Below, one piece after another: positions 12,432 through 13,971 of a stretch of 40,897 nucleotides of DNA (its first letter is position 1; the number at the start of each line of letters is the position of its first letter). A model generated the notes under the pieces. That model did no database searches and was not told the origin of the DNA. It saw only the letters and a program-made list of their open reading frames with translations. The stretch spans positions 1-40,897 of IMG/VR virus record IMGVR_UViG_3300038701_000883. The stretch is one strand, 5' to 3'. The stretch is from a virus. Position numbers and translations under genes: made by a program.

Positions 12432-12767
12432 ATGCCCGAATTCACCAATGCCGGCGGCTCTCTTGGCCGCTCCATCTACGACGCGCCAGAGCGCAGTGGA
12501 AGCGAAATCGAAGCGGAGCGCATCGAGCGGATCATGGCGCAGGTGTCGCGCCGTGATCTCGAGCGCGCGCTGATCGTCATGCTGTCGGCGGCACGCACGG
12601 CAGAGGGCGAGCAGGGCCGCTTGCACGACACCCTCCGCCCGGTCGTCTCGAAGGCGCTGCAGGACTGCATCGACAACATCGGGAGCGCGCTGGTCGAGGA
12701 GGGAATCGACCAAGTCGCGGAGATCATCGGCGCCGACGCCCTCGACATTCTGGAAGGCGACGCATGA
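12432..12767 (+). CDS. First gene of the rightward unit, helical protein of unknown function
   Basis: 111 residues. ATG 12432 was chosen because AAGGAAA lies just upstream and because the longer frame from 12339 would begin before the promoter. The protein is helical and acidic, with IERIMAQVSRRDLERALIVML in the middle and a C-terminal EEGIDQVAEIIGADALDIL. The stop overlaps the methyltransferase start (ATGA). As the first early product it may be a host-takeover or anti-defence protein, but nothing in the sequence shows this. Confidence 0.75.
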   Translation: MPEFTNAGGSLGRSIYDAPERSGSEIEAERIERIMAQVSRRDLERALIVMLSAARTAEGEQGRLHDTLRPVVSKALQDCIDNIGSALVEEGIDQVAEIIGADALDILEGDA

Positions 12768-13789
12768 CGGCGTACTACAACGAGATCGACCCCTTCGCGG
12801 CTGAGTGGTTGCGGAACCTGATCGACGCAGGGCACATCGCCCCGGGCGTCGTGGACACCAGAAGCATCACAGAGGTGACAGCGGATGACCTTGCCGGATT
12901 CACGCAGTGCCACTTCTTTGCAGGGATCGGTGGATGGAGCCTCGCAGCTCGACTTGCCGGGATTCCCGACGACTACCCCATCTGGACCGCCAGCTGCCCC
13001 TGCCAGCCGTTTTCGGTCGCCGGGCGCCAGCGCGGAGTCGACGACGAGCGCCACCTGTGGCCCGTCTTCCGCGACCTCATCGCGCAGTGCCGACCTGCAG
13101 TCGTCGCTGGAGAGCAGGTTGCGAGCAAGGCTGGCCGGGCGTGGCTGTCCGGTGTACTCGATGAAGTGGAAGGTCTGGGATATGCCGGGGCGGGAGCCGA
13201 TTTGTGCGCTGCGGGCGTCGGCGCCCCGCACATCCGCCAGCGCCTCTACTGGGCGGCTCTCGCCGAACACGTCGGACGGCACGGCGGAGCAGCTGCTGGC
13301 CCGGAAACAGGCCATGGCGGACCGGGGCGTGCAGCAGGGCGTCTCGGTGACGCAGCTGGCGCATCAGGCGCAGATCGCGGGCTGGGTCACGCCAAGCGCC
13401 CGGGACTGGAAGGACACCCCGGGCATGAGCCTGACGGGCACGAACCCGGACGGGACGCTCCGCGCGCGGATCGACCAGCTGCCCCGGCAGGCGGCGATTG
13501 CGGGGTGGCAGACGCCGAAAGTCGCGGACGCGACAGGCGGGCAGACAAGCCGAGGCGGGAAGCGGAAGCACGAGTTGCTGCTGGGGGGCGAGGCGCGAGC
13601 AGCGGCGGCTGGGATGATGTCATCTGGCTCCCTTGCGCCGACGGAAAAGCCCGGCCCATTGAACCCGGCCTTGAGCCGCTGGCTCATGGGGTTCCCGGCC
13701 GCGTGGGACGAGTGCGCGCCTACGGGAACGCCATCGTCCCGGAACTCGCAGCCGAATTCCTGATGGCTGCATTGGAGGAGGACAACTGA
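12764..13789 (+). CDS. DNA C5-cytosine methyltransferase
   Basis: 341 residues. It transfers a methyl group from S-adenosylmethionine to C5 of cytosine, probably shielding phage DNA from restriction. Motif I is HFFAGIGGWSLAARLAG (residues 50-66), motif IV is SCPCQPFS with catalytic C80, motif VI is GEQV where ENV is usual (E117 retained), motif VIII is HIRQRLYW, and motif X is AYGNAIVPELAAEF near the end. Between about residues 165 and 290, where a target recognition domain should be, this frame is a Gly/Ala/Arg/Asp-rich sequence of low complexity. The same DNA in the +1 frame encodes an orderly protein (12885-13763). Ends in TGATG overlap with csrA. Confidence 0.92.
   Translation: MTAYYNEIDPFAAEWLRNLIDAGHIAPGVVDTRSITEVTADDLAGFTQCHFFAGIGGWSLAARLAGIPDDYPIWTASCPCQPFSVAGRQRGVDDERHLWPVFRDLIAQCRPAVVAGEQVASKAGRAWLSGVLDEVEGLGYAGAGADLCAAGVGAPHIRQRLYWAALAEHVGRHGGAAAGPETGHGGPGRAAGRLGDAAGASGADRGLGHAKRPGLEGHPGHEPDGHEPGRDAPRADRPAAPAGGDCGVADAESRGRDRRADKPRREAEARVAAGGRGASSGGWDDVIWLPCADGKARPIEPGLEPLAHGVPGRVGRVRAYGNAIVPELAAEFLMAALEEDN
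12885..13763 (+). CDS. Overprinted +1-frame gene within the methyltransferase gene
   Basis: 292 residues, entirely inside the methyltransferase gene. ATG 12885 has its own Shine-Dalgarno, GAGGTGA, six bases ahead. The protein is not a random shadow: it has SLESRLRARLAG and VYSMKWKVW (residues 74-98), a CALRASAPRTS segment, two W-x-T-P motifs (GWVTPSARDWKD at 167-178, GWQTPKVADATGG at 208-219), DQLPRQA, and an ending LNPALSRWLMGFPAAWDECAPT (part, 259-280) then SSRNSQ. I recall this same series of motifs in proteins of prophages, also beside or within C5-methyltransferase genes. Role unknown; a partner or substitute recognition subunit is an inference. Conserved amino-acid motifs in this frame explain the degenerate middle of the methyltransferase frame. 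Confidence 0.78.
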   Translation: MTLPDSRSATSLQGSVDGASQLDLPGFPTTTPSGPPAAPASRFRSPGASAESTTSATCGPSSATSSRSADLQSSLESRLRARLAGRGCPVYSMKWKVWDMPGREPICALRASAPRTSASASTGRLSPNTSDGTAEQLLARKQAMADRGVQQGVSVTQLAHQAQIAGWVTPSARDWKDTPGMSLTGTNPDGTLRARIDQLPRQAAIAGWQTPKVADATGGQTSRGGKRKHELLLGGEARAAAAGMMSSGSLAPTEKPGPLNPALSRWLMGFPAAWDECAPTGTPSSRNSQPNS

Positions 13790-13971
13790 TGCTGGTACTG
13801 ACCAGGCGAGCAGGCGAAGCCGTGATCGTCACCAACGGCACCGAGGAGCTCACGATCCGCGTGAAGCAGATCAGGGGGAAGCAGGTCCACATGACCTTCG
13901 AGGCACCGAAGAGCATGAAGATCCTGCGCGAAGAGGTCATCGACAGAGGAGATGCGAGCGATGGCGCGTGA
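13789..13971 (+). CDS. csrA: CsrA/RsmA-family RNA-binding regulator
   Basis: 60 residues. CsrA dimers bind GGA motifs in mRNA leaders and alter translation and stability. The match runs end to end: MLVLTRRAGEAVIV (L4 and R6 conserved), a central strand KQIRGKQVHMTFEAP, and REEV (R48, E49) as in the RNA-binding C-terminal strand of the family. The normal length is about 60 residues. Its start overlaps the methyltransferase stop (TGATG) and lies behind GGAGGAGGA, three GGA triplets that double as Shine-Dalgarno, so self-repression is plausible. The phage copy could redirect host carbon metabolism or motility, or time phage translation. Confidence 0.93.
   Translation: MLVLTRRAGEAVIVTNGTEELTIRVKQIRGKQVHMTFEAPKSMKILREEVIDRGDASDGA

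Follow-up and report, generated by a model that had tools for sequence, protein, structure and literature searches.

The window analysed here is a 40.9 kb virus contig from IMG/VR (40,897 nucleotides in its entirety) that carries genes for a portal, a large terminase, an ejection protein and Erf; RNA families and tRNAs were searched for in it and none was found. Positions 12764..13789 of the plus strand code in frame 0 for a putative C5-cytosine methyltransferase subunit of 341 residues, which we will refer to as alpha and which matches PF00145 (3e-12, above the cut-off) and PHROG_363 (4e-80). It had been noticed that an 879-base open reading frame starts from an ATG at 12885 inside this gene, and we find it at 12885..13763 (+), entirely within the alpha reading frame, in frame +1 and 292 residues long. 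Its product, taken to be a +1-frame subunit, will be referred to as beta. Beta has homologues in the +1 frame of related genes and has matches in PHROG_1008 and in PHROG_31772, while no matching family was found in Pfam, NCBIfam or PADLOC. The families holding the two frames, PHROG_363 for alpha and PHROG_1008 and PHROG_31772 for beta, are thus each named DNA methyltransferase, and they stand as separate entries in which the overlap is unmentioned. A gene for a CsrA-family regulator (PF02599, 3e-15) lies at 13789-13971, its first base coinciding with the final base of the stop codon of the methyltransferase gene; phage CsrA homologues merit attention.

The motifs of alpha, all on the plus strand, begin with motifs II and III (YYNEIDPFAAEWL...GVVDTRSI; 12773..12868), identified by eye against M.HhaI and with N6, L19 and G28 invariant, which stand before motif I (CHFFAGIGGWSLAA; 12908..12949; H50-G54 and G56 at least 90% conserved). 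There follow the catalytic motif IV, PCQPFS (12998..13015; P79, C80, Q81 and S84 invariant), motif VI, in which GEQV replaces the usual ENV (13109..13120; G116-V119 invariant), motif VIII, HIRQRLYW (13229..13252; R158 and R160 invariant), and, beyond residues 168-280 (13265..13603), which occupy the recognition-domain slot, motif X (VRAYGNAIVPELAAEF; 13712..13759; G321 and A329 invariant), which is dual-coded with the beta C-terminus. By eye, the order over residues 4-119 is permuted, with a II/III-like segment followed by I (CHFFAGIGG) and then IV. Conservation was read from 91 alpha sequences, and the residues that mark a C5-methyltransferase (P79, C80, Q81, E117, R158, R160 and G321) are invariant in all of them. 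Alpha departs from the canonical one-chain order in that its slot holds filler that is hardly selected and in that motif IX lies in beta. When alpha is modelled alone with AlphaFold, residues 1-170 mostly have a pLDDT of 86-98, the slot has a pLDDT of 34-52 and no secondary structure, with most of 172-277 unfolded, and a C-terminal helix is folded again after it. The best Foldseek matches of this model are M.HhaI and M.HaeIII.

Beta, likewise on the plus strand, begins with residues 1-62 (12885..13070), an out-of-frame reading of alpha motifs I-IV that is barely conserved and has low pLDDT, followed at residues 64-122 (13074..13250) by a conserved segment predicted to form a helix and beta hairpin. 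The middle of the protein consists of three modules. Module 1 (GRLSPNTSDG...QLAHQAQIA; 13251..13379) has its anchor tryptophan replaced by arginine and resembles by eye a module that recurs elsewhere, GWATPAAHEPGGTPEQALERKK...LSHQAQFA; module 2 (GWVTPSARDWKDTPGM...DQLPRQAAIA; 13380..13502) appears by eye to be of the commonest type, RDWKD...DQLPRQA; and module 3 (GWQTPKVADATGGQTSRGGKRKHELLLGG...; 13503..13607) was delimited by module segmentation, with an approximate right edge. Motif IX (PLNPALSRWLMGFPAAW; 13656..13706; W266 and W274 invariant) is dual-coded with alpha. The three motifs first noticed in this frame are present at residues 166-177 (GWVTPSARDWKD), 207-215 (GWQTPKVAD) and 259-271 (LNPALSRWLMGFP). 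AlphaFold yields only a poor model for beta (pLDDT 63, pTM 0.28), in which the best-predicted part is the helix-hairpin at 64-112 (mean pLDDT 74-88 per block at 71-110). The model has no significant fold match in the PDB and a sequence search found no solved relative; its significant BFVD matches look like sequence relatives.

An open +1 frame is by itself weak proof of coding in the window gene, as this gene is GC-rich and a +1 run of this length is seen in 1877 of 20000 synonymous-codon shuffles (P=0.094). An artefact, in which high GC content together with the conserved motifs of alpha forces a long frame to stay open, would account for so unremarkable a run, but the related genes leave it a negligible probability. 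Across 156 of them the +1 open run covers a median of 90% of the alpha gene, against 21% for +2, and its length is significant at 0.05 in 131 of the 156 in +1 and in a single one in +2. Low-GC relatives keep the frame open as well (232 of 279 codons in a T4-like phage at 45% GC), and both the switch in codon phase and the shuffle tests described below speak against a spurious, GC-driven frame, which these comparisons refute.

Homologues of beta were found by tblastn in 133 phage records. Whether a C5-methyltransferase gene always contains them in its +1 frame had been posed as a check, and the answer is affirmative for 166 of 167 loci (phage, plasmid and window), the sole exception being a degraded prophage on a K. 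aerogenes plasmid, and for all 80 GTDB loci, which come from several phyla. Because the searches were seeded with the window's proteins, obligate pairing is claimed for the alpha/beta family and not for C5-methyltransferases at large; within it, pairing spans the range from the T4-like phage at 45% GC through epsilon15 and N15, and the arrangement is common to hundreds of phages, as the original prediction of a possibly widespread overprinted pair had it. Five seemingly stand-alone beta homologues (FoX4 gp11, PhiXhv-7, Cr-LKS3 g58, phiKX1 and ZS04) all proved to overlie an alpha-like frame, and no beta homologue lacking an overlapping alpha frame was found. In rare GTDB loci one frame is interrupted and the other open (the interrupted frame is alpha in L213 and L240 and beta in L242), and these are either natural knock-outs or assembly errors. 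We regard dual coding of the locus as near certain.

Shuffling one frame while preserving the other provides further insight into which protein owns which DNA. Alpha codons were shuffled synonymously in 20 shuffles and the similarity of beta to that of the window compared: beta lies above all 20 alpha-preserving shuffles in 153 of 155 loci for residues 71-120, in 148 of 155 for residues 126-252 and in 155 of 155 for residues 253-292, and for residues 1-70 in just 27 of 155. In a second shuffle set, comprising 119 loci, residues 64-122 are above the shuffles in 97-98 loci, and residues 123-240 and 255-292 are above all 20 of them in 114 and 117 loci, and the conserved beta protein begins near residue 64. 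With codons shuffled synonymously in the beta frame instead (119 loci), alpha shows conservation of its own at residues 60-165 and 281-335, but hardly any at 168-280, where its median similarity is 62 versus 59 in the beta-preserving shuffles, and it is above all shuffles in 15 of 119. Substitution rates at alpha codon positions 1/2/3 are.16/.135/.528 in the alpha-only region,.277/.149/.162 in the module region, where alpha position 1 (equivalent to beta position 3) varies most, and.193/.129/.239 in the motif IX-X region, which is constrained in both frames. As the sequence pairs are not independent of one another, it is the contrast between regions, to which no P value is attached, that serves as the rate evidence. 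The codon-phase and shuffle tests together reveal purifying selection in the +1 frame.

Motif IX of M.HhaI, used as a query in its textbook form, matches beta (P=0.0035), with a median score of 26 in beta versus 11 in alpha, and motif X has its best match in alpha (P=0.0145). Alpha thus carries motifs I-VIII and X, and beta motif IX. The shuffles, the rates, the alpha model and the motif matches together lead us to conclude that from motif VIII to motif X the DNA codes chiefly as beta. The Gly/Ala/Arg filler originally noticed in alpha is accordingly the shadow of beta coding, being the DNA of beta read out of frame, as seen in both the shuffle test and the AlphaFold model.

Such a division has a counterpart in M.EcoHK31I, whose small subunit we take to be coded inside the large-subunit gene in another frame. 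That enzyme consists of two polypeptides, the large one containing motifs I-VIII and X and the small one motif IX, and its recognition domain has been predicted to lie in the large subunit (PMC3404938). By this published description the division of motifs is the same as between alpha and beta. The overprinted pair is therefore not wholly without a described function, as had been supposed when it was guessed, correctly, to be widespread, since the two-polypeptide biochemistry of M.EcoHK31I is described. There are differences, however: M.EcoHK31I has one known target, YGGCCR, and a predicted recognition domain in its large subunit, whereas here the alpha slot is little or not selected and beta has 1-6 modules. 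M.EcoHK31I is also a member of a restriction-modification pair, whereas no restriction enzyme adjoins the alpha/beta relatives among the matches listed.

When the beta proteins are read side by side, their middle is seen to be a tandem array of 1-6 modules, each starting with GWxTP, and this array of exchangeable modules in the recognition region goes beyond what was originally noticed. Segmentation yielded 517 modules from 187 loci, with at most 5 per locus (6 by a looser count) and an internal module length of 31-44 residues (10th-90th percentile); the cuts were placed with the help of a sequence motif, so that the procedure overlooks divergent modules, including the first one in the window. 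At 65% identity the modules fall into 184 families, 72 of them with at least two members, and the 187 loci display 155 distinct module orders. The largest family, F0, accounts for 70 of the 517 modules, and common families occur at nearly any ordinal position and beside many different neighbours.

Even closely related phages differ by the gain, loss or exchange of modules. A total of 112 module pairs are at least 80% identical on alphas that are less than 70% identical, and 144 of 280 locus pairs with an alpha catalytic identity of at least 85% have no module in common. The loci L162 and L137 have unrelated modules and yet are 93-95% identical over about 2 kb on each side, which amounts to a cassette swap; L158/L128 and L187/L200 differ by module insertion, L109/L117 by deletion, and in L141/L108 the end of the array is replaced. 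No family is repeated within any of 148 distinct arrays, where 10.6 repeats are expected and the minimum in 5000 permutations is 3. Such a lack of repeats is what one would predict were every module to bring in a further specificity, but recombination that removes direct repeats could have the same outcome.

Because of these patterns together with the division of motifs, we consider it likely that the locus codes for a two-frame heteromeric DNA (cytosine-5) methyltransferase in which beta is a recognition array, probably a multispecific one. Alpha would provide AdoMet binding, the catalytic domain (motifs I-VIII) and the motif X helix, and between VIII and X would carry only an unfolded loop arising from the out-of-frame reading of beta DNA. 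Beta would supply what alpha lacks, namely motif IX, the helix-hairpin and the array of modules in the usual place of the recognition domain, and would dock on alpha so as to rebuild the small domain. The modules may then act as alternative DNA-reading surfaces, each probably targeting a different short DNA sequence; if so, the phage would protect itself against several host restriction enzymes. Modules could be inserted, deleted or swapped as cassettes without harm to catalysis, since alpha tolerates any filler that is free of stops and in frame. The earlier proposal that beta supplies recognition or another linked function thus largely holds, with the recognition role suggested by position, modularity and two known analogues. 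On balance we also favour a combinatorial arrangement of at least about 180 interchangeable modules of about 35 residues, with short targets of their own, which cassette recombination within the dual-coded region would combine into sets of 1-6 and so provide phages with custom multispecific methyltransferases, and it seems rather probable that in such an arrangement the region owes its freedom to evolve to the overlap with tolerant filler.

Beta could be translated separately or reached by frameshifting, both of which had been envisaged. The GAGGTGA ribosome-binding site that had been noticed is present at 12872..12878 (+), six bases before the ATG at 12885, with a predicted pairing to the 16S tail of -7.1 kcal/mol. 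The ATG lies 75-215 nt into alpha in 112 of 120 non-redundant loci, mostly at +79 to +142, and median ribosome-site energies are -6.05 for the chosen beta starts, -3.8 for other in-frame starts and -2.6 for random positions. Ribosomal frameshifting out of alpha would give a single chain with motifs I-VIII, then the modules and motif IX, and in many loci an alpha-to-beta junction made in silico after motif VIII does resemble an ordinary single-chain methyltransferase. Such a fusion would nevertheless lose motif X, which remains in frame 0 under selection, and beta is conserved at 64-122, upstream of any such junction. With the conserved zone of beta ATGs and their better-scoring ribosome sites, this makes frameshifting highly improbable and favours a separate subunit; the ATG inside the alpha gene is the most likely point of initiation for beta.

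Beta might instead be required as a structural partner, contributing motif IX to complete the fold while recognition stays in alpha, the modules serving, for example, protein-protein contacts. The recognition domain predicted for the large subunit of M.EcoHK31I (PMC3404938) and the poorly resolved fold of beta in AlphaFold would suit this arrangement, but the alpha slot is unfolded in the model, is little conserved (above shuffles in the 15 of 119 loci) and changes wholesale with the modules, and a specificity domain can hardly be the passive by-product of another frame. We consider recognition by alpha unlikely. Alternatively, the modules might be decoys or inhibitors of host defences, shuffled in an arms race, with methylation incidental. 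The exchange pattern suits any arms-race module, and a Tad2-like anti-defence protein and other orphan methyltransferases are encoded nearby; even so, the modules are positioned between motifs VIII and IX and are strictly linked to alpha in all loci examined, which makes decoys very improbable indeed. Recognition by the beta modules thus remains our preferred explanation. Among the matches listed, the neighbour genes of bacterial loci comprise other orphan methyltransferases, integrases and the Tad2-like gene, a setting consistent with the shielding of phage DNA from restriction, and no linked restriction enzyme was found among the families listed for 129 flanking genes.

The components of this proposed heteromer have parallels elsewhere. 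In Type I systems specificity resides in a separate subunit, HsdS, whose variable recognition domains can be exchanged, although HsdS differs in serving adenine methylation, in having two large domains and in lacking dual coding. The multispecific C5-methyltransferases of Bacillus phages are single polypeptides coded in one frame. Those of SPR, phi3T, rho11 and H2 have tandem recognition domains and several targets (PMC8936443). Like them, beta is a tandem array, with exchangeable modules of 31-44 residues between motifs VIII and IX, but the array lies in beta and not in the catalytic chain, its module set is far larger and it is coded in an overlapping gene. In M.AquI the catalytic half and the half with recognition and motif IX are on separate polypeptides, a split similar to that between alpha and beta, although its small subunit adds motif X and half of the variable region, and dual coding is undescribed there (PMC3404938). 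The alpha/beta family joins the ideas of M.EcoHK31I and the Bacillus phage enzymes and adds to them large-scale shuffling in an overprinted frame. In the openly available papers we found no account of an overprinted subunit that holds exchangeable modules in tandem.

Evolutionary constraint is the usual expectation for overlapping genes, whereas here the overlapped region is the part most freely exchanged, because one frame uses it as filler. Should every module prove to read a DNA sequence of its own, the family would constitute a ready-made library for a module-to-sequence code of cytosine methylation and could allow prediction of the restriction systems that a phage escapes. The pair is present in the laboratory phages N15, epsilon15 and Bas75.

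In public phage records the locus is annotated in either frame and often in one only (L001, L004, L249, L252, L253). Alpha alone is annotated in N15 (gp58) and epsilon15 (p22), beta alone in Cr-LKS3 (g58), FoX4 (gp11) and PhiXhv-7, and both frames in Kagunavirus records and several recent Xanthomonas phage records; no comment on the overlap was found in the records that annotate both. Because usually just one frame is annotated, half of the proposed enzyme has been overlooked, and assays in which such orphan methyltransferases are represented by alpha only could yield false negatives. The distant C5-methyltransferases of Paenibacillus larvae phages are annotated as two methyltransferase genes, one such gene being named after the BsuMI subunit YdiP, which suggests that there are other split C5 enzymes in phages.
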